From: a virus
DNA length: 20,736 bases
Strand: one strand, 5' to 3'
IMG/VR virus record: IMGVR_UViG_3300026521_000411
Span: 1 to 20,736 of that record
Part shown: piece by piece, positions 7,712 through 20,736 of the stretch
How positions within the stretch are numbered: position 1 is the stretch's first letter
Layout of the letters: the number at the start of each line of letters is the position of its first letter
The notes under the pieces: model-generated
What the model was told of the DNA's origin: nothing
What the model saw: only the letters and a program-made list of their open reading frames with translations
The model's database searches: none
Position numbers and translations under genes: made by a program

Positions 7712-8242
7712 TTAATCCTTTAGTTTCTTTTTAACCATTTCTTTCATTGAAACTTCACCTATATTTTTAACTTTAGTTCCTGGAATCTTTTCAAGAAGTT
7801 TCATATCTTTTAAACCCGATTTAGTTTCTGCTTCAGAAGTATAATAAACATCTATCACTTTACCATTTTTTGATAAAGTAGCTCTTTCTAAATAAAGTTC
7901 TTTTCCATTTATCACTGGTCGTTTAGATTCTATTCTTAATTTAAAATCGCTTGTTTTATCAAGCTCGTTGATATTTTGCTTAGATATATTTGTAATTTTT
8001 TTATGAACCGTTCCATTACCAACCATTTTCTGCCAACCATAATAATTTTTTAATTTAGAATCAAATTTTCTAATACGATGATTTTTAAAATACCAATCTG
8101 TTCTTTCGCAAGTACTTTTTGGTGGTAATTTATCAAATTCATTTTTAGGTATTTGAATTTCAAATCTTATTTCGTTATGTAGTTCGTCATTGATTTTAGA
8201 AGCTTCTTCTAAAATCAATTGTTTGTTAATTTTATAAATCAT
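7712..8242 (-). CDS. Unknown protein with the shared INK..ILEE leader
   Basis: The first 14 residues, MIYKINKQLILEEA, match the leader shared by several genes up to 12294. The rest of the 176 residues is unrelated to them. The body has a segment of Arg, Lys and aromatic residues (TDWYFKNHRIRKF, YYGWQKMVGNGTVHKK, about 48-82) and a C-terminal alpha/beta-looking part with EAETKSGLKDMKLLEK. I do not recognise a family. It could be an ADP-ribosyltransferase-like or nuclease-like effector, but no catalytic motif is clear. The start overlaps the endonuclease VII stop by 11 nt. The AAGGAAATT ribosome site lies within the last codons of that gene, as at the other leader genes. Confidence 0.75.
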   Translation of the reverse strand: MIYKINKQLILEEASKINDELHNEIRFEIQIPKNEFDKLPPKSTCERTDWYFKNHRIRKFDSKLKNYYGWQKMVGNGTVHKKITNISKQNINELDKTSDFKLRIESKRPVINGKELYLERATLSKNGKVIDVYYTSEAETKSGLKDMKLLEKIPGTKVKNIGEVSMKEMVKKKLKD

Positions 8243-8828
8243 TTAAAATTTCCTTTTTTGCTTTTCTTTGTCTTTGTCTTTCCGCTTTAGCCAGAGCTTT
8301 ATCCATTTCTAAATCTTTAATATCATCTAAAATTCTTTGCACTTCATCATTTAGGTAAGTAAATTTAGGTATCTTTTTTCTGCGGGGATATAATTCCAGA
8401 TAATATTTATTAATTTTATTCTGTTCTGATTTCTTAACTTTAATACGTTTTGGTTTTTCAGTATAATATACATAATTATAATTTAATTTTTTCGCTGGTG
8501 GTTCTTCCAAGTAATCAGCTAAGTTTCTTAAAAAATTTGGCAAAGATATACCATATCTTTGCATATTATATCTTTTCCAAACATTCGTTATTTTTCCTTC
8601 GATTGCGTTGGCATCGAAGGAAATGCACCCACGTATTAAACCCTTACCACCATTTTCCCAATTACTACAATTTTCTTTTTTTAATTTATGTTGGTGGTCA
8701 GCAACCGATTTTTCCAAAGGTATTTTAATATTTAATAGTGGACAGATACCATTTTGTTTATCGTACAATTCTTTTTTTATTAATTGTGTTTCTTTTTGAT
8801 TAGTATATATTATTTCTTGTGTTTTCAT
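8232..8828 (-). CDS. Recombination endonuclease VII-like Holliday junction nuclease
   Basis: Residues 20-105 match T4 endonuclease VII (gp49): L..KQNGICPLL, then A-D44-H45-Q-H47, G-L-I-R-G at 63-67, D-A-N74-A-I-E77-G, and LPNFLRNLADYL. The His-Me-type catalytic set (D44, H45, H47, N74, E77) is present. The four structural zinc cysteines of T4 endoVII are not: the CPxC pair is C29-P-L-L, and the second CxxC before N74 is S-F-D-A. C68 is three residues out of register. The family resolves branched DNA before packaging. At 198 residues it is longer than T4 gp49 (157), with a Lys/Arg-rich tail. It sits in the accessory gene run with an 11-nt overlap to the next gene. Confidence 0.82.
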   Translation of the reverse strand: MKTQEIIYTNQKETQLIKKELYDKQNGICPLLNIKIPLEKSVADHQHKLKKENCSNWENGGKGLIRGCISFDANAIEGKITNVWKRYNMQRYGISLPNFLRNLADYLEEPPAKKLNYNYVYYTEKPKRIKVKKSEQNKINKYYLELYPRRKKIPKFTYLNDEVQRILDDIKDLEMDKALAKAERQRQRKAKKEILNDL

Positions 8829-8854
8829 TTTATTTAAATTCCGTTTCTATATGA

Positions 8855-9175
8855 TTATGTGTAAATTGTTCTTGCTATTGGATTTAGTGTACCATTGGCT
8901 TTCGCTAAAGCTAAATCACGTTGATGTATTTTATCAAATTTTGCGTTTAAAGCTTGTCCTTCTGGAGTCATTTTAGATAAATATGCCGTTGATCCTAATA
9001 GTCCGGCTGTTGCTCCAACTCCTGCTGCGGCTGGAGCATAATCGTCGTTACCGCTATAAAAAGCAGTTCCGGCTCCAATAGCTGCACCAATAGGGATAGA
9101 AGCGAGTTGCCCAAGAGTTTGTAACTTAGTGTATGTTTCTTCTAAAATTACCTTTTTATTTATTTCCAATTTCAT
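8855..9175 (-). CDS. Glycine-zipper protein with the shared INK..ILEE leader
   Basis: This 106-residue protein has leader residues MKLEINKKVILEET. Residues 26-66 are a small-residue-rich hydrophobic stretch (SIPIGAAIGAGTAFYSG and AAAGVGATAGLLGSTAYL) typical of glycine zippers, which form tightly packed helical hairpins in membranes. The remainder is short and charged (DKIHQRDLALAKANG). It may insert into the host membrane, for example during DNA entry, but that is inference. The ribosome binding site is AAGGTT upstream of ATG 9175. It lies between CheY and endonuclease VII. Confidence 0.78.
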   Translation of the reverse strand: MKLEINKKVILEETYTKLQTLGQLASIPIGAAIGAGTAFYSGNDDYAPAAAGVGATAGLLGSTAYLSKMTPEGQALNAKFDKIHQRDLALAKANGTLNPIARTIYT

Positions 9176-9196
9176 TTTATAACCTTTTTATTTTTA

Positions 9197-9610
9197 TTAA
9201 TTTATTATAGTTTGTAATTTGTTTGATAAAGTATTCGCATCGAATGGTTTGATTATATAGTTATTAACTCCTGCTTTAAGAGCTTGTATTACTGAAGTTT
9301 TACCACCTTCAGTAGTTATCATAATAATTGGAGTATCTTTGTATTGATCGGATTTACGGATTAATTTTACTAATTCTAAACCATTTCTATTCGGCATATT
9401 CCAATCTGTCATTATAATATCATAATGAATTTCTTCTCCACTTTCTAAATCTAATTGAGGGTTTTGTAATAAATCCCAAGCTTCGACACCATCTAAAGCA
9501 GTATCAATATTTTCTTTTGGGATTCCTACACGAATTAAAGAATTTGTAATAATTCTAAGCATCGTTTTAGAATCATCCACTACCAGAACTTTTAATTTGT
9601 CTTTATTCAT
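9197..9610 (-). CDS. CheY-like single-domain response regulator
   Basis: This 137-residue receiver domain alone has the acidic pair D12-D13, the phosphoacceptor D69 in MTDWNMPNRNGLELVKLIR, T99 in ITTEGGK, Y118 and K121 in VNNYIIKPF. This core is strikingly close to chemotaxis CheY of Helicobacter and Campylobacter. It differs by an insertion before D69 (DLESGEEIHYD). All residues needed for phosphorylation and switching are present, so it may compete with or mimic host CheY at the flagellar motor. Its ATG overlaps the stop of the TraB/ChaN-like gene (ATGA). It lacks the neighbours' N-terminal leader, so it is probably made in the infected cell. Confidence 0.93.
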   Translation of the reverse strand: MNKDKLKVLVVDDSKTMLRIITNSLIRVGIPKENIDTALDGVEAWDLLQNPQLDLESGEEIHYDIIMTDWNMPNRNGLELVKLIRKSDQYKDTPIIMITTEGGKTSVIQALKAGVNNYIIKPFDANTLSNKLQTIIN

Positions 9611-10053
9611 TTAATTTCCTTGTATTTGCTTCTAATAATTTTAGCTCCAGTATTTTTTAAAAAAGTATTTAAATCATGATTTCCAAAATATTCATTGGTT
9701 TCCCTAATGTGAGCATCTCCAAGAACAATAACTATATTTTTATATTTATTTAAATATTTTTGAATAGTTTCTTTCATTTCTTTTTCTCGAATTTTAAATT
9801 GTTTTTTAAGATCCTTTGGATACTTTTTACCAATTTTATTTGAAGGTTCTAAAGGAACTACTTTAAATTTCTTTTTTAATTCTGGTTCTTCAAAATCGAG
9901 TTCGTGAATTATTAGATCAGGTTTTAAAGAAATAACTTTATTACGTATTTCTTTCACTTCATCTGGTTTAAAATGAGCTTCTCCAAATACTGTAATTTTT
10001 TTAGAATTAAAAACTTCTTCTAAAATTACCTCTTTATTTATATTTAAAGTCAT
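9607..10053 (-). CDS. TraB/ChaN-like protein with the shared INK..ILEE leader
   Basis: After leader MTLNINKEVILEEV, the body (residues 19-148) shows ITVFGEAHFKPDEV (GEAH 24-27), LIIHELDF, an R-E-K-E-M-K-E-T-I helix at 89-97 and IVIVLGDAHIRETN (GDAH 112-115). The paired G-E/D-A-H motifs, an R...M helix and the small alpha/beta core match the TraB/TIKI/ChaN superfamily, which includes heme-binding lipoproteins, metalloprotease-like proteins and pheromone-inactivation proteins. The substrate is unknown. At 148 residues it is a minimal version. Start and stop both overlap neighbours by ATGA. The 3' end, encoding KYKEIK, contains the AAGGAAATTAAATGA translation start site of CheY. Confidence 0.75.
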   Translation of the reverse strand: MTLNINKEVILEEVFNSKKITVFGEAHFKPDEVKEIRNKVISLKPDLIIHELDFEEPELKKKFKVVPLEPSNKIGKKYPKDLKKQFKIREKEMKETIQKYLNKYKNIVIVLGDAHIRETNEYFGNHDLNTFLKNTGAKIIRSKYKEIK

Positions 10054-10685
10054 TTAATTTCCTTTAAAAATTCTCTTAATCTATTATTTATTTCTTTAGT
10101 TTTTCGTATTTCTATATTATTATCCGAAACTAATGTTTTATTTTCTGGATGGTTTTGTAAATATTCGTTTGCTTCTTTTACTGCATCCCTAACGGCTGGA
10201 TGTACATTTGGATGTTTCCAATAATTTAAATCTTTTGCATGATCTGCTAATAATGATCCAGGAAAAATTGTTCCATTATCTGAATTTACTGCGACTGTAG
10301 CTTTCTGCACCCAACCAGTCCCTGGTCTTAAACCACCTTGTACTCGATATATATTATCTTCTGGACGGGCGTTTGGATCATCCATTAATGCTCGTCTGTA
10401 TCTATATTCATCTAATTTTGCTTGAGAAAATATCCCAGTATCATTTTTTGGATGAGTTCCCTGTAAATGTATACCCGTAGTTGGGAAAAGTTTTCCCTGA
10501 CTAACACTATGATATAAAGGTACTTTATAATTAATAATATTATTATTGTTATCATAACATGTTCCAGAAACGCAATATATATGTCTGGAATCATTATTAT
10601 CATTTGGCGTAGTACTTCCGATATATTTAATACCAGTTAAAGCCATTTCTTCTAAAAGTACTTCTTTATTTATATTTAGTGTCAT
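10050..10685 (-). CDS. Unknown protein with the shared INK..LLEE leader
   Basis: This 211-residue protein begins MTLNINKEVLLEEM, almost identical to its downstream neighbour's leader (MTLNINKEVILEEV). The two then diverge completely. The body has two Cys (IYCVSGTCYD, residues 36-45), a Gly/His-rich region (TTGIHLQGTHPKNDTG), YRYRRALMDDPNARPEDNIYRVQGGLRPGTGW and a C-terminal helical segment. It looks like a globular enzyme, but I do not recognise it. An ADP-ribosyltransferase- or RES-type fold is conceivable from the YR..R and YRVQGG strings; that is speculation. ATGA overlap with the next gene; TAA-ATG junction with the previous one. Confidence 0.72.
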   Translation of the reverse strand: MTLNINKEVLLEEMALTGIKYIGSTTPNDNNDSRHIYCVSGTCYDNNNNIINYKVPLYHSVSQGKLFPTTGIHLQGTHPKNDTGIFSQAKLDEYRYRRALMDDPNARPEDNIYRVQGGLRPGTGWVQKATVAVNSDNGTIFPGSLLADHAKDLNYWKHPNVHPAVRDAVKEANEYLQNHPENKTLVSDNNIEIRKTKEINNRLREFLKEIK

Positions 10686-11093
10686 TTAATTTCCTTGTAT
10701 TTCTTTAATTAATTCTTTTTTCATTTTTGAAGTTATCGTCCAATGATTTTTTAAACTATTTCCAGTCATTATTGATGATGAAGTTTTATCTAAAGGATTT
10801 TTTAAAGAAATATCTACTTTTTCAGAAGAATTACAACCAATACCAATATATTTATTATTTTTATTAAAAAATTTTTTTAAATAAGGTTTATATCCACATC
10901 CTCTAGAAAATCCAATAATTATATCATTTTTAGATTTTATAAGTTTTGCTATTGGTTCCGAATTTCCATCCGATTCAACCTCTTTATAATTACCATGTTT
11001 TGAAATAATTTCTTTAAGTTCTTTATAAAATATTTTTGTTTCTGGATTAATTTTATATTTTGGATTACCTTTTATTAAAATAATATTTTTCAT
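10686..11093 (-). CDS. Small serine-hydrolase-like protein
   Basis: This 135-residue protein has an alpha/beta layout. The N-terminal strand MKNIILIKGN is followed by a nucleophile-elbow motif IIIGFSRGC (S63 in G-x-S-x-G) and a late LKNHW (H117) at the place of a catalytic histidine. A partner acid could be D102. It is much shorter than normal alpha/beta-hydrolases and resembles a stripped-down version of the YqiA-like protein at 6853. No leader is present. Its C-terminus EIQGN is encoded by the same DNA string (ACAAGGAAATTAAATG) that encodes KEIK in other genes, in a different frame, because that string is the next gene's ribosome site and start. Confidence 0.65.
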   Translation of the reverse strand: MKNIILIKGNPKYKINPETKIFYKELKEIISKHGNYKEVESDGNSEPIAKLIKSKNDIIIGFSRGCGYKPYLKKFFNKNNKYIGIGCNSSEKVDISLKNPLDKTSSSIMTGNSLKNHWTITSKMKKELIKEIQGN

Positions 11094-11097
11094 CTTC

Positions 11098-11535
11098 TTA
11101 TCCAGTACTGTCTATAAAATTAATTACAGATTGAGGTATCTTATCAAAACTATCATAACTTTTAGAACGAGCTCTATGTGTAGTTATAAAGAACTTTCCT
11201 GTTGGTTTACCTCGAAATAGTTCTTCTTTACAACTAAACCCTTTCTTTTCTTTAATACCTTTACATGGTACATTCTGAGACTTTTCTGGTTTACTTTCGG
11301 AAGCTTCTGTAAAATATTTTTTAGATTTGTATGCTCCAGCAGCTGAACCAAGCGTTGCTCCTACAGCGGCTCCACCAAAAGGATTACCAAGTACTTCACC
11401 AGTTAATGCTCCAATAGTACCACCAGCTATAGTAGTTCCAAGAGTTAGTCCAAGAGCCTTTCCTTGAGCATTTGGATCTTTTAGATTATCAATATACTCT
11501 AAAAAATCTTTTTTATTTAATATAATTTTTGCCAT
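11098..11535 (-). CDS. Glycine-zipper protein with a variant leader
   Basis: This 145-residue protein starts MAKIILNKKDFLEYI, which fits the neighbours' leader with one extra residue (xNKKxFLE). Residues 25-68 are a long glycine zipper (LGLTLGTTIAGGTIGALTGEVLG and GGAAVGATLGSAAGAY), predicting a membrane-active helical hairpin. The C-terminal half is soluble, with two Cys (VPCKGIKEKKGFSCKEELF) and a positively charged FFITTHRARSKSYDSF segment. A phage internal or ejection protein is plausible. On the minus strand a TATAAATA box lies 33 nt upstream of its ATG, so it may start its own transcript. Confidence 0.75.
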   Translation of the reverse strand: MAKIILNKKDFLEYIDNLKDPNAQGKALGLTLGTTIAGGTIGALTGEVLGNPFGGAAVGATLGSAAGAYKSKKYFTEASESKPEKSQNVPCKGIKEKKGFSCKEELFRGKPTGKFFITTHRARSKSYDSFDKIPQSVINFIDSTG

Positions 11536-11566
11536 ATTTTTTTCCTATTTGTATATTACTTATATA

Positions 11567-11998
11567 TTATTTATATATACTATCTTTTTCACCAATTACT
11601 TTTTTATGAAGATTTGGTAAATATTTATTAGCTTTATCCGATGTGTACCAAGCAGTAGCAATTGCTGGAACAGCTGCCGCTAACTTAGAACTATCACTAT
11701 CTATATCTATATCGAAACCATTATCTTGAGCAAGACTTTGAGCACCACGAGCAGCCCCATATACCAAACCACCTAAAGTTAATTTAGTTAAAGCTTGTGT
11801 TCCCATACGTAATCCAAGATCTTGAGCAATTGCTATATCATCTTTTCGGTATTTTGGTTTTAAAGTTCCTAAATCACTATAACTTTTTACAGCAAATGTT
11901 GGTAAAGGACTTTCATGAAATCCTTTATTAACACCTACCATAAAACCAGAACTTTCGAGAAGTTCGGTAATCTCTTTTTTATTTATATTTATTTTCAT
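11567..11998 (-). CDS. Small-residue-rich hydrophobic protein with leader MKININKKEITELLE
   Basis: The 143-residue product has the leader MKININKKEITELLES, identical over 15 residues to the next upstream gene's corrected start. Residues 59-83 (AQDLGLRMGTQALTKLTLGGLVYGAARGA) and 103-117 (AAAVPAIATAW) are hydrophobic and rich in Gly/Ala, resembling a degenerate glycine zipper. An acidic DIDIDSDSS lies between. Its ATG overlaps the previous gene's TGA (ATGA), indicating coupling. No enzyme motif is visible. Possible membrane-interacting virion protein. Confidence 0.72.
   Translation of the reverse strand: MKININKKEITELLESSGFMVGVNKGFHESPLPTFAVKSYSDLGTLKPKYRKDDIAIAQDLGLRMGTQALTKLTLGGLVYGAARGAQSLAQDNGFDIDIDSDSSKLAAAVPAIATAWYTSDKANKYLPNLHKKVIGEKDSIYK
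11568..11575 (-). promoter_or_regulatory. Candidate TATAAATA box before the 11098-11535 gene
   Basis: On the minus strand the octamer overlaps the 3' end of the upstream gene and stands 33 nt before ATG 11535, in a gap that is otherwise A/T-rich with TATATAAG. It is supported only by position and recurrence. Confidence 0.3.
11961..11998 (-). repeat. 38-nt direct repeat, copy 1 (leader-coding DNA)
   Basis: These 38 bases are identical to 12257-12294. On the minus strand both copies run from the ATG through codons for MKININKKEITEL. The neighbouring sequences differ at once outside the repeat, so this is a copied leader module and not a whole-gene duplication. Confidence 0.9.
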
Positions 11999-12294
11999 AA
12001 TTTATTCCATCCATCTTTAACCCAATCATGTTTTGTCGAAATTCCATTCTTATGTTCCCATTTTCTAAATTCTTTATTTAATATAGTTACCGGATCATTA
12101 ATTTTTTTTAATTTATTTGAATAAAATGATCCTCCACCGAGAGGATGATTTTTAGAAGAAGCTACTATAATTAAAGAATCAGCTAATTTATCTTTAATAA
12201 GATTTTCCCCAAAGTTCGTTAAAGCTTTGGATAATTTTGGAATTTCGTTTTCAAGGAGTTCGGTAATCTCTTTTTTATTTATATTTATTTTCAT
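11995..12294 (-). CDS. Small unknown protein with leader MKININKKEITELLE
   Basis: The frame is open from 12324, but I place the start at ATG 12294. That codon is preceded by AAAGG at the right spacing, and from it the product begins MKININKKEITELLEN, the shared leader. The upstream ten residues would overlap the previous gene further and have no ribosome site. The 99-residue body includes ADSLIIVASSKNHPLGGGSFYSN and KWEHKNGISTKHDWVKDGWNKL, with His and Trp residues near the C-terminus. I do not recognise a family. It overlaps the upstream gene by 20 nt and the downstream one by ATGA. Confidence 0.72.
   Translation of the reverse strand: MKININKKEITELLENEIPKLSKALTNFGENLIKDKLADSLIIVASSKNHPLGGGSFYSNKLKKINDPVTILNKEFRKWEHKNGISTKHDWVKDGWNKL
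12257..12294 (-). repeat. 38-nt direct repeat, copy 2 (leader-coding DNA)
   Basis: This is the second exact copy of the segment at 11961-11998, again beginning at an ATG on the minus strand. Confidence 0.9.
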
Positions 12295-12622
12295 GGAAAG
12301 CCTTTGTACGTTGTTTTGATTCATTTAACATATTTTCTCTAGAAAGAGTTTCTAAACTCTTTCTTTCCATTAATGGAATAATATCTAAATTTGGCCTTTC
12401 TAAAGAATATTTTTGTAATTTGGAAAATGATATTCTTTTTAATCTAAATTTTTCTTTTTTAGAATTAATTTTGTTATTTATATAATCACTACCGTAATTT
12501 AATTCGAATACTATTTCTAACTCTTCTTCTAAACTTCTATTGTTAGAGTACTTATCTAAATCTAAAATATCTTCTTTATTTGCCATTTTTAACATAAATA
12601 CTAAATCGTCATTTGTATACAT
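12275..12622 (-). CDS. Hypothetical protein downstream of RNA polymerase beta
   Basis: This 115-residue charged protein has no family I recognise. It is acidic at the N-terminus (NDDLVFMLKMANKEDILDLDKY, EEELEIVFEL) and basic in the middle (NSKKEKFRLKRISFSKLQKY), with a helical tail. It begins MYTNDD after a good AAAGGAAG ribosome site, 16 nt downstream of the beta gene stop, so it is co-transcribed with it. It has no leader motif. Its 3' end overlaps the next gene by 20 nt. It could be an RNA polymerase accessory factor by position only. Confidence 0.7.
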   Translation of the reverse strand: MYTNDDLVFMLKMANKEDILDLDKYSNNRSLEEELEIVFELNYGSDYINNKINSKKEKFRLKRISFSKLQKYSLERPNLDIIPLMERKSLETLSRENMLNESKQRTKAFHENKYK

Positions 12623-15766: not shown

Positions 15767-15840
15767 TCTTTGATATTATTTAGTTAATTTTTAATATTTT
15801 GGTTTTTAATTTTAGAAAATTTTTTTAGAAAATACGTGTG

Positions 15841-15889
15841 TTTTTATATATAGTTAACTATCAGTACACACACTATGAATAGTTAACTA
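15841..15889 (+). repeat. Left arm of long inverted repeat
   Basis: Bases 15850-15889 are the exact reverse complement of 16061-16100 (40 nt). With one mismatch the match extends to 15841/16109. Each arm holds two copies of the palindrome TAGTTAACTA (15851 and 15880) with a CAGTACACACACTATGAA spacer. Confidence 0.95.
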
Positions 15890-15922
15890 TGGATAGTTAT
15901 TCGTTTTATAAAATTCCTAGCT

Positions 15923-16042: not shown

Positions 16043-16060
16043 TAACTAACATACGACACT

Positions 16061-16109
16061 TAGTTAACTATTCATAGTGTGTGTACTGATAGTTAACTAT
16101 AGATAAAAA
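16061..16109 (-). repeat. Right arm of long inverted repeat
   Basis: Exact inverted copy of the left arm over 40 nt (16061-16100), extended by one mismatch to 16109. TAGTTAACTA palindromes lie at 16061 and 16090. Confidence 0.95.
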
Positions 16110-16161: not shown

Positions 16162-17469
16162 ATGGCTAAAAAATTAACCCAAGAGGAAGTCATAAAAAGA
16201 TTTAAAAACATTCATTCTAATAAATATGATTATTCCTTGGTTGAATATAAAAAAACAACTCGGAAAGTAAATATAAAATGTAAAACTTGCAATAGTATTT
16301 TTGAACAAACTCCAATGGGTCATTTTAATGGACATGGTTGTCCAAAATGTAATAAAAATAAACCAAAAACCCAAAAAGAACATATAATGGATTTTAAAAA
16401 AATACATTCGGACAAATATGATTATTCATTGGTCGAATATAAAAAAGCAAATATACCAGTAAAAATCAAATGTAAAACATGTAATAATATTTTTGAGCAG
16501 AAACCAATGGATCATAAATCTGGATATGGTTGCAAGATATGTTCAAAATCACGATTACTAGAAAAAAATTATAAAAGAATTTTATTAAAATTTAAAGAAA
16601 CTCATTCTAATAAATATAATTATGAGTTGGTCAAGTACACTGGAAATAGAAACAATATAGAAATAATTTGTCCCGAACATGGGAGTTTTTTTCAGACTCC
16701 AGATGGACATGCTCAGGGAGCTGGTTGTCCAAAATGTTCTAAAACTGGTTTAAGGGATCTTAATAAAGTACTTGAGCAATTCAAGGAAAAACATTCGGAT
16801 AAATATGATTATTCCTTGGTTGAATATATCAATGGTTTAACCAAAGTACAAATAATTTGTCATGAAAAAAATTGCTTTGGGAAAGAGCATGGGATATTTT
16901 TACAAACTCCAAATATGCATATCTTAGGTTCTGGATGCCCAAAATGCGCAGGGTTAAATAAAACCTTAGATGAACATATATTCGAATTTAAAAAAGTCCA
17001 CGGAAATAAATACGATTATAGCAAAGTCCGTTATAAAAATAATAAAACCAAGATAGAAATAATTTGTCCAGAACATGGAAGTTTTTGGAAAACGCCAAAT
17101 GGTCATAAAATGGGTTTTATGTGCCCAAGTTGTAATAATTCAAGAGGTGAAGAAAAGATTAGAGAATTCCTAGAATCTAATAATATAATTTATAAAATGG
17201 AAAATAGATTCAAAGATCTTAATAAATTACCATTTGATTTTTATTTAGAAGAATTAAACATTGCTGTAGAATTCGATGGGGAACAACATTTTAAAGCTAT
17301 TAAATTTTTTGGTGGAGAAGAAGGTTTAAAGAAAACTCAAGAACGGGATAAAATTAAAAACGATTATTGTAAAAATAATAATATAGAACTTATTAGAATA
17401 CCATACACAGATTTTGATAAGGTAGAAGAAATATTAAAGGAAAAAATATGTACGAAACAAGCGAAATAG
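16162..17469 (+). CDS. Vsr-like (EDxHD-type) homing endonuclease with five zinc-ribbon repeats
   Basis: This 435-residue protein is the largest of three paralogues. It has five repeats (about residues 9-62, 71-124, 133-185, 195-253, 272-326), each with H.(N/D)KYDYS.V.Y, a Cys/His pair (CKTC or CPEHG) and a closing GCPKC. The fourth has an insertion (CHEKNCFGKEHG). The nuclease domain follows: FDFYLE from 358, EFDGEQHF at 370-377 and R-D..K.DYC..NNIELIRIPY. Repeats probably read the DNA target, and repeat number may set specificity. Start ATG 16162 has AAAGGA seven bases upstream. It is the first plus-strand gene after the divergent region and overlaps the RecJ-like gene by 22 nt, so it depends on that transcript. 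Confidence 0.88.
   Translation: MAKKLTQEEVIKRFKNIHSNKYDYSLVEYKKTTRKVNIKCKTCNSIFEQTPMGHFNGHGCPKCNKNKPKTQKEHIMDFKKIHSDKYDYSLVEYKKANIPVKIKCKTCNNIFEQKPMDHKSGYGCKICSKSRLLEKNYKRILLKFKETHSNKYNYELVKYTGNRNNIEIICPEHGSFFQTPDGHAQGAGCPKCSKTGLRDLNKVLEQFKEKHSDKYDYSLVEYINGLTKVQIICHEKNCFGKEHGIFLQTPNMHILGSGCPKCAGLNKTLDEHIFEFKKVHGNKYDYSKVRYKNNKTKIEIICPEHGSFWKTPNGHKMGFMCPSCNNSRGEEKIREFLESNNIIYKMENRFKDLNKLPFDFYLEELNIAVEFDGEQHFKAIKFFGGEEGLKKTQERDKIKNDYCKNNNIELIRIPYTDFDKVEEILKEKICTKQAK
17002..17033 (+). repeat. 32-nt identical segment shared with 19271-19302
   Basis: This is an exact DNA match between the fifth repeat of this endonuclease and the first repeat of the one at 19217. It encodes GNKYDYSKVR, implying recent gene conversion or repeat exchange. 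Confidence 0.9.
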
Positions 17470-19216: not shown

Positions 19217-20101
19217 ATGTCTAGAAAATTAACTCAGGAAGAAGTTCTAGAACAATTTAAAAAAGTTCATGGAAATAAATACGATTATAGCAAAGTCCGT
19301 TACTTAAATTCCAATACGAAAGTAGAAGTTATTTGTCCAGATCATGGGAGTTTTTGGGTTTATCCGAAATATCATAAAATGGGAAAAAGATGTAGACAAT
19401 GTTTTTATAAAGATAATAAATTATCCAAAGAAGAATTTATAAAGAGATCAAAAAAAGTTCACCAAAATAAATACGATTATAGCAAAGTTCACTACATAAA
19501 TAATAATACAAAAGTCGAAATTATATGTTCTGAACATGGGAGTTTTTTTCAAAGACCTGGTAACCATATTAATCAGAAAGATGGTTGCCCACGCTGTTCT
19601 AAATCATTTCCAAAAACTCAAAAAGAAATAATAGAAGATTTTAAAAAAGTTCACTCTAATAAATATGATTATAGTAAAGTTCAATATAAAAGTACTATGG
19701 TTAAAGTAGAAATTATTTGTTCGGAACATGGGAGTTTTTTTCAAAGACCAAATGATCATAAAAATGGATATGGTTGTCCTAAATGTGGTAGAAAGAGTAA
19801 AGGGGAAGAAAAAATTCAAGAATTTTTAGAAGAGAATAATATAGAATATTTAAGAGAATATAATTTATTTAAAAAGTATAGATTTGATTTTTATTTACCA
19901 AATTCAAATATTTTAATAGAATTTGATGGTAGACAGCATTTTGAACCAGTAGAATATTTTGGCGGAGAGAAAATATTTAAAGAAACGTGTTTTAGGGATA
20001 AAGAGAAGGATATCTATTGTAAAGAAAATGATATCGAACTTATTAGAATTTCATATAAAGATTTTAATAAAATTGAAGAATTATTAAATAAAGTTATTTA
20101 A
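19217..20101 (+). CDS. Vsr-like (EDxHD-type) homing endonuclease with three zinc-ribbon repeats
   Basis: This 294-residue protein has three repeats (about residues 9-60, 70-126, 137-189) of the HGNKYDYSKV.Y...TKVE.IC..HGSF type. The nuclease domain follows, with FDFYLP from 223, EFDGRQHF (235-242, R replacing E of the paralogues), FRD..KDIYC and IELIRISY. Start ATG 19217 lies 8 nt after the RecJ-like stop, with AGGAATT in between. Two of its repeats carry identical strings (EIICSEHGSFFQRP) and one shares a 32-nt DNA identity with the 16162 gene, showing active exchange. It ends the plus-strand operon before a long non-coding region. Confidence 0.87.
   Translation: MSRKLTQEEVLEQFKKVHGNKYDYSKVRYLNSNTKVEVICPDHGSFWVYPKYHKMGKRCRQCFYKDNKLSKEEFIKRSKKVHQNKYDYSKVHYINNNTKVEIICSEHGSFFQRPGNHINQKDGCPRCSKSFPKTQKEIIEDFKKVHSNKYDYSKVQYKSTMVKVEIICSEHGSFFQRPNDHKNGYGCPKCGRKSKGEEKIQEFLEENNIEYLREYNLFKKYRFDFYLPNSNILIEFDGRQHFEPVEYFGGEKIFKETCFRDKEKDIYCKENDIELIRISYKDFNKIEELLNKVI
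19271..19302 (+). repeat. 32-nt identical segment shared with 17002-17033
   Basis: This is the second copy of the GNKYDYSKVR-coding segment. It lies at the first repeat here and the last repeat in the other endonuclease. Confidence 0.9.
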
Positions 20102-20112
20102 ATGTATTCTGG

Positions 20113-20142
20113 AGTACTTTAAAGTACTTTAAAGTACTTTAA
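20113..20142 (+). repeat. Three direct repeats of AGTACTTTAA
   Basis: Three exact 10-bp units in tandem, nearly one DNA turn each and built on the palindrome AAAGTACTTT, directly after the endonuclease gene. Such phased palindromes could bind a regulator cooperatively. Confidence 0.9.
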
Positions 20143-20178
20143 AATAACTATTACTAAGTATAGATATCTTATAATCGA

Positions 20179-20219
20179 GAAGATAAATAAATACCGAAAG
20201 TGTATTTATTTTTATCTTC
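20179..20219 (+). terminator. Long hairpin after the plus-strand operon
   Basis: GAAGATAAATAAATAC pairs with GTATTTATT..ATCTTC (two-base bulge) around a CGAAAG loop, followed by AGGTTTTC. The U run is weak. It may end transcription of the endonuclease-recJ-endonuclease operon. Confidence 0.45.
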
Positions 20220-20286
20220 AGGTTTTCATGTCGCTTTAAAGCTAACTGAACAACTTATTTTCGATTTCAATATTCAGAAAGTTTGT

Positions 20287-20319
<33 letters not shown>

Positions 20320-20331
20320 ATTGAACGTTAA

Positions 20332-20339
20332 TATAAATA
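20332..20339 (+). promoter_or_regulatory. Candidate TATAAATA promoter of the structured leader
   Basis: The octamer ends 8 nt before the first hairpin of the structured RNA. A transcript starting at the usual distance would begin almost exactly at that hairpin. This makes it the best supported of the TATAAATA boxes. Confidence 0.45.
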
Positions 20340-20346
20340 GGCAAAT

Positions 20347-20498
20347 GATTGGAAAATTAAAATTTTCCAATCTACCGAACACGATTATGCATGTCAAAGC
20401 AGGCGGTATATAAACTGATCGTAATAAAATGGGTGTGACGGACCCACTAAACCGGAATTAGGTAATTTACATGGTTTAGAGTAATTATTAAAATTACC
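20347..20498 (+). ncRNA. Structured 5' leader RNA with H-type pseudoknot (riboswitch-like, class unknown)
   Basis: Helices follow one another with almost no gaps. A 12-nt-arm hairpin (20347-20358 / 20361-20372) comes first, then TACCG/CGGTA (20373-20377 / 20404-20408) and TGGGT/ACCCA with a 7-nt loop (20430-20446). Next is a classical pseudoknot: CTAAACC 20447-20453 with GGTTTAG 20473-20479, crossed by GGTAATTT 20461-20468 with AAATTACC 20491-20498. The second pseudoknot helix ends 3 nt before the Shine-Dalgarno (20502-20507), so folding could block or help translation of the 10-codon ORF. I compared it by eye with SAM-II, preQ1, fluoride and glutamine riboswitch layouts and saw no convincing match. 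Confidence 0.5.
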
Positions 20499-20513
20499 AA
20501 AAAGGAGTCCAAA

Positions 20514-20546
20514 ATGGGCTGCGATATTACACCAGGAAATTGTTAG
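20514..20546 (+). CDS. 10-residue peptide MGCDITPGNC (leader or signalling peptide)
   Basis: An AAGGAG Shine-Dalgarno, the best in the window, lies 6 nt before ATG. The ORF is ATG plus nine codons and TAG. The peptide has Cys at positions 3 and 10 separated by DITPGN. It ends 4 nt before a rho-independent terminator stem, the arrangement of a transcription attenuator where ribosome behaviour on a short ORF decides termination. It could instead be a tiny functional peptide. There is no homologue I can name. Support comes from the ribosome site and its position between a structured RNA and a terminator. Confidence 0.5.
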   Translation: MGCDITPGNC

Positions 20547-20550
20547 GTCG

Positions 20551-20580
20551 AGAAGGGAATTATATTCCCTTCTTTTTTTT
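20551..20580 (+). terminator. Rho-independent terminator before the DHH gene
   Basis: AGAAGGGAAT / ATTCCCTTCT forms a 10-bp stem with a 3-nt loop, followed by eight T residues. It lies 24 nt upstream of the next ATG, so full termination here would silence that gene unless it has its own promoter or the terminator is regulated. Confidence 0.9.
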
Positions 20581-20603
20581 ATTTAAATTAAAAAAGGAAA
20601 AAT

Positions 20604-20736
20604 ATGAAAACATTAGTAGTTTATCATAAACAGTGTATGGATGGTCTTGGAAGCGCTGCTTCTTATAGTATGTTAGAAGAGATTGGAGTTGATATGGTTT
20701 TTAAAGCTATTCAACATGGTGAACCAGCTAAAGAAG
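20604..20736 (+). CDS. DHH-family phosphoesterase-like protein (C-terminus beyond window)
   Basis: Only 44 residues are visible. They begin MKTLVVYHKQCMDGLGSAASY and continue with I-G-V-D-M-V-F-K-A-I-Q-H-G-E-P. The motif VVYHKQCMDGLGSA fits motif I of DHH-superfamily phosphoesterases (h.H...DGhgsA), and a second strand ending IQHGE matches the usual ...V.YG.. segment. The family includes oligoribonucleases, pAp or cyclic dinucleotide phosphodiesterases and RecJ. The subtype cannot be told from this fragment. Start: ATG 20604 with AAGGAAAA. A terminator and a structured leader lie just upstream, so expression may be controlled by attenuation. It is the second DHH protein in 4 kb. Confidence 0.75.
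   Translation, partial: MKTLVVYHKQCMDGLGSAASYSMLEEIGVDMVFKAIQHGEPAKE

Follow-up and report, generated by a model that had tools for sequence, protein, structure and literature searches.

A conserved promoter, leader, micro-ORF and terminator unit in a little-sampled phage group: a candidate translation-dependent attenuator

A transcription unit comprising a phage-type promoter, a leader, a minimal open reading frame and an intrinsic terminator is conserved in a little-sampled group of phages, and this is the robust finding of the present analysis. The window (the whole stretch of DNA analysed here, 20,736 nucleotides) is a 20.7-kb virus record carrying an RNA polymerase beta-like gene, a RecJ-like gene and three homing-endonuclease-like genes. 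The RecJ and polymerase proteins led to its relatives: L003 (167-kb record), L004 (130 kb), L005 (31 kb) and the more distant L024. Four contigs, the window, L004, L003 and L048, contain the same parts in the same order, namely the promoter, a near-identical 5' hairpin, the motif G(A/T)TTTCnTGTCGyT, an A/T-rich spacer, a Shine-Dalgarno sequence (SD), a micro-ORF and a terminator, whereas a stretch of the window's leader holding a pseudoknot candidate is not conserved. The preliminary description of this DNA had centered on the latter RNA and overlooked the conserved part: a 10-codon ORF, a terminator 3 nt later and a phage-type promoter ~340 nt upstream of the ATG. We would give an even chance to the proposal that the unit serves the genes downstream as a ribosome-controlled transcription attenuator; of these genes the first is DHH-like and a later one, in the relatives, encodes a QueC-domain protein.

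The promoter-like element lies at positions 20140-20174 on the plus strand. It spans 35 bp and has the form TAAAATAA-N11-TATAGATATCTTATAA (TAAAATAA-N11-TATAGATATYTTATAA). The pattern recurs with constant spacing in three related records, six times in G001 (167 kb), five times in G002 (130 kb) and once in G003, always on one strand, and is present in further contigs as well; a reversed control of the pattern gave 0 matches. Directly after 15 of 18 copies of the element there is a stable hairpin (z below -2). The window's own hairpin, at 20179-20219 (plus strand), has a folding energy of -13.8 kcal/mol, equalled in none of 200 shuffles, and would form the 5' end of the transcript. Recurrence, fixed position and the hairpin behind most copies make a phage promoter the best reading of the element, with a predicted transcript start near 20178. 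The leader motif conserved in L003, L004 and L048 follows at 20222-20235 (plus strand) as GTTTTCATGTCGCT. The box TATAAATA at 20332, with which the RNA had initially been made to begin, is indeed present, but the window has 22 copies of this octamer and 20140-20174 is the better promoter candidate.

The promoter-type element also precedes other leaders. Leaders of ~220-260 nt are found behind it in L026 (G001:39500-40130, minus strand), L030 (G002:34000-34600, minus strand) and L033 (G003:700-1250, minus strand); these leaders, from three phages, share the conserved blocks CCGGTCAGGCATAGAGCA and CCTCnAAGCAAGGCGCGGGAnCATTTT and are a candidate family of structured leader RNAs; Rfam gave nothing at E<=1, and phage searches yielded no convincing homologue. 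A leader common to L017/L025, L052 and L053, of the form TTTATTAAATTTATAG...CTATGGATTTGRTAAGRGATAT...TCTAAGGTRCT, contains hairpins that seem to covary, and a phage search with it returned weak short matches only. In the leaders of L025, L028 and L050, TACCTCCGATAANGGAGAAGAA is a hairpin holding GGAG directly before the start codon. The promoter element of this group offers a simple handle for locating its other structured leaders.

At the distal end of the unit, the SD (AGGAG, 20503-20507, plus strand) occupies the same place in L003, L004 and L048 and serves a 10-codon micro-ORF, MGCDITPGNC (20514-20546, plus strand). The orthologous peptides are MGCDVSPGNC in L004, MGTDITPGC in L003 and MGAVDITGNC in L048, all of 9-10 codons with Cys as the last, and they follow the pattern MG..D(I/V)(T/S).G.C with conservative changes. 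Length differences among them all amount to whole codons, and codon position 3 accounts for 7 of the 11 variable columns of the alignment (P=0.039, a modest signal from four sequences), which together support the notion that the micro-ORF is translated. The most divergent unit, in L005, has a 7-codon ORF, MGAIDMT, at the same place and a weak hairpin; a search of viral contigs with the micro-ORF pattern matched only the relatives already known. The intrinsic terminator (20550-20582, plus strand), conserved in the relatives, starts its stem 3 nt after the micro-ORF stop; in the four units the distance is 3, 2, 2 and 5 nt. Between the stem and the next ATG there are 28-29 nt, leaving little room for an independent promoter.

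A peptide pattern kept in four phages, a strong SD and a complete transcription unit would also suit a self-standing micro-gene, with the 5' hairpin and leader stabilising an mRNA for a 10-residue peptide that acts on host or phage, and the terminator merely ending this mRNA. We find this doubtful: the genes downstream would have almost no space after the terminator for a promoter of their own, and with so few nucleotides between stop and stem, termination would respond to translation of the micro-ORF itself (PMC4824070). In E. coli, moving a terminator to 5 bp past a stop codon lowered its efficiency from ~90% to <10%, an effect that required translation (PMC4824070). Given the conserved short spacing, the same translation-dependent repression of termination would apply here, the ribosome masking the stem. 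The terminator is placed to respond to a ribosome, and genes on the same strand follow it, as would be the case for an attenuator.

To account for this arrangement, we infer that a 5' leader of ~340 nt, with 20332-20514 in its 3' part, would be transcribed from the phage-type promoter at 20140-20174. If ribosomes loaded fast, or lingered on the last codons or the stop of the micro-ORF, the 5' arm of the terminator would be covered and RNA polymerase would read through into the downstream genes; with no ribosome on the micro-ORF, the terminator would fold and only a short transcript would be made. The frequency and speed of ribosome loading would be set by the structured leader, including, in the window, the acquired pseudoknot beside the SD. 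Several points weigh against the attenuator. Over the first ~100 bp a ribosome seldom draws level with a polymerase that does not pause (PMC4824070), and no pause site was identified in the leader. The short transcript may be what the unit serves to produce, and the phage, which has its own RNA polymerase gene, could use other promoter classes to drive the downstream genes. As to an antiterminator helix, upstream complements of the terminator arm were short, U-rich and inconsistent across the four leaders; a pairing of the conserved GTTTTC motif with the terminator arm was discarded, being broken by the window's sequence. It is conceivable, if unlikely, that the unit represents a family of attenuators in which a conserved nascent peptide of 9-10 residues, with Cys-stop at its end, keeps the ribosome positioned over a terminator 2-5 nt later, an exchangeable structured RNA before the ribosome site (here the pseudoknot) acting as sensor.

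The gene next to the terminator, a DHH-like phosphoesterase gene, starts at 20604 on the plus strand and is cut by the window end (20604-20736); over 130 nt it is 83.8% identical in nucleotide sequence to L003. Its full-length relatives match phage DHH phosphoesterases, with Pfam DHH below the curated cut-off, and a search of genome contigs for relatives found none. In L003, the downstream genes lie on one strand as far as the QueC-domain protein, 5 kb contain no terminator-like site other than that of the unit, and the next copy of the promoter element is found ~7.5 kb downstream. Proteins of the QueC type synthesise 7-deazaguanine precursors and are employed by phages in DNA modification (PMC6884629).

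Elsewhere in the window, the homing-endonuclease-like genes (1442-2329, 16162-17469 and 19217-20101) come with FKKVHGNKYDYSKV-type repeats; such a gene adjoins the unit in L003 and not in L004. A link to HEARO-type RNAs through these neighbours was dropped after Rfam gave no match. The palindrome TAGTTAACTA occurs twice (15836-15891 and 16049-16099), between the divergent polymerase and endonuclease genes. On the minus strand (7712-12324), several adjacent genes encode N-termini that are alike, M...INK(K/E)..LEE, and resemble a T4-type capsid-targeting peptide with an LxE/IxE protease site.

The crossed helices reported in the preliminary description are exactly as claimed when the sequence is read directly. 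The H-type pseudoknot candidate (20447-20498, plus strand) is made of S1, a perfect 7-bp helix between CTAAACC (20447-20453) and GGTTTAG (20473-20479), and S2, a perfect 8-bp helix between GGTAATTT (20461-20468) and AAATTACC (20491-20498). Its loops measure 7 nt (L1, 20454-20460), 4 nt (L2, 20469-20472) and 11 nt (L3, 20480-20490); GGAG lies 5 nt downstream of it, ahead of the ATG at 20514. An equal or better crossing pair arose in 5 of 500 dinucleotide shuffles of the 183 nt from 20332 to 20514 (~1%). Scanning the whole window on both strands, at a threshold of -22 kcal/mol, yielded 14 clusters of crossing pairs of equal or greater strength, the pseudoknot included. Taken together, these figures make the pseudoknot locally noteworthy and moderately unusual, not unique. 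The interval 20332-20600 folds more stably than 200 of 200 shuffles (z -4.68), largely because it includes the terminator and a perfect inverted repeat with an 11-bp stem, GATTGGAAAAT (20347-20372, plus strand). Nested folding is ordinary for 20373-20446 (z -0.48) and 20447-20513 (z -0.85).

Comparison with the relatives places most of this RNA in a lineage-specific stretch of 253 nt (20236-20488, plus strand), replaced by 27 nt in L004: BLAST aligns window and L004 collinearly as far as 20235 and then from 20489 onward. When the RNA was searched for at the DNA level in phages, plasmids, its own record and ten related records, nothing better than weak, short matches came back. The stretch contains a second 10-codon ORF (ATGGGT..., 20429-20461, MGVTDPLNRN) lacking an SD, which may be a weak hint of an old duplication. 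One possibility, to which we assign somewhat less than an even chance and which is compatible with the attenuator as it concerns the insert only, is that the extra stretch is a neutral or decayed mobile or duplicated segment and the pseudoknot a chance fold. Its absence from all relatives, its content (a TAAA repeat, the perfect inverted repeat and the MG-ORF), the ordinary stability of its parts apart from that repeat and the number of equally strong crossing pairs in the window all point this way, while the ~1% frequency in the local shuffle test and the position directly before the SD point the other way. Small H-type pseudoknots in L003 (matched in 1 of 500 shuffles) and L004 (39 of 500), with two compensated S2 pairs (TTGAG/CTCAA versus CTGGG/CCCAG), were set aside as only suggestive; a test of their helix positions was weak (shuffle frequencies 0.03, 0.22, 0.36 and 0.84), and L048 has no clear one.

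The RNA was originally likened to translational riboswitches of the preQ1 or SAM-II type. That it matches no known class agrees with the Rfam covariance searches, in which neither the window nor 20100-20736 matched a riboswitch family at E<=10 and in which sub-regions of the window and other leaders were also without a match; a tRNA/tmRNA search was likewise negative. In translational preQ1 and SAM-II switches the SD takes part in the pseudoknot fold. Here, AGGAG falls after the 3' strand of S2, which ends at 20498, outside the pseudoknot. As to the check suggested at the time, compensatory changes in related phages, no homologue of 20332-20498 was found in the phages, plasmids and related records searched, and because the orthologous leaders lack the stretch they provide no compensatory evidence for either helix. 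With the pseudoknot almost wholly within the missing stretch, the RNA is not, on present evidence, a conserved riboswitch class. What stands of the structured leader is that it precedes a putatively translated ORF, has crossed helices beside the SD and is without an Rfam assignment; that it belongs or is akin to a ligand-binding class is not supported. A riboswitch reading of 20332-20498 is possible while lacking comparative support, and we consider it very improbable that this interval is a ligand-binding translational switch acquired by the phage lineage to control the micro-ORF start. It would be in keeping with 7- and 8-bp helices that adjoin the SD and beat 495 of 500 shuffles, and the QueC-domain gene (7-deazaguanine pathway) in the same gene string of the relatives makes a deazaguanine ligand thinkable. 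On the other side stand the lack of homologues, and hence of covariation, the absence of an Rfam match, an SD outside the fold, and relatives in which the conserved unit does without this RNA.

If the attenuator proposal is true, translation-dependent termination at one of the shortest conserved leader ORFs is how a phage group that has RNA polymerase genes of its own regulates a DHH-like/QueC-domain gene string. More generally, a pseudoknot that is convincing in a single sequence can be a lineage-specific insert, and comparison with relatives can reveal a different feature.

Among known systems, preQ1 and SAM-II switches resemble the window's leader in having an H-type pseudoknot near the SD, with a QueC-domain gene further downstream in the relatives, but the window RNA differs in its lack of an Rfam match, its SD outside the fold and its non-conservation between relatives. 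The leader of T4 gene 32 likewise places a pseudoknot upstream of a ribosome site in a phage mRNA, although the product downstream is there a single-strand DNA-binding protein and here a micro-ORF. The ampC leader attenuator of E. coli, where a ribosome bound at a minimal leader ORF interferes with the terminator beside it, is similar in this respect to what is proposed here; the present unit differs from it in encoding a conserved peptide and in its long, structured leader. The pyrBI attenuator of E. coli and those of amino-acid operons share with the unit a promoter, a short leader ORF, an intrinsic terminator and an operon, and, as in pyrBI, translation of the leader ORF would block folding of the terminator. 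An antiterminator helix is needed for attenuators of the amino-acid type, not for those of the pyrBI type. Unlike amino-acid attenuators, the unit has no run of control codons and no consistent antiterminator. It differs from leader-peptide attenuators of both types in its ORF of 9-10 codons and a terminator 2-5 nt past the stop; in amino-acid attenuators, leader ORF and terminator are separated by >20 bp (PMC4824070). Attenuation is a known kind of control, of which the unit described here would be a new variant.
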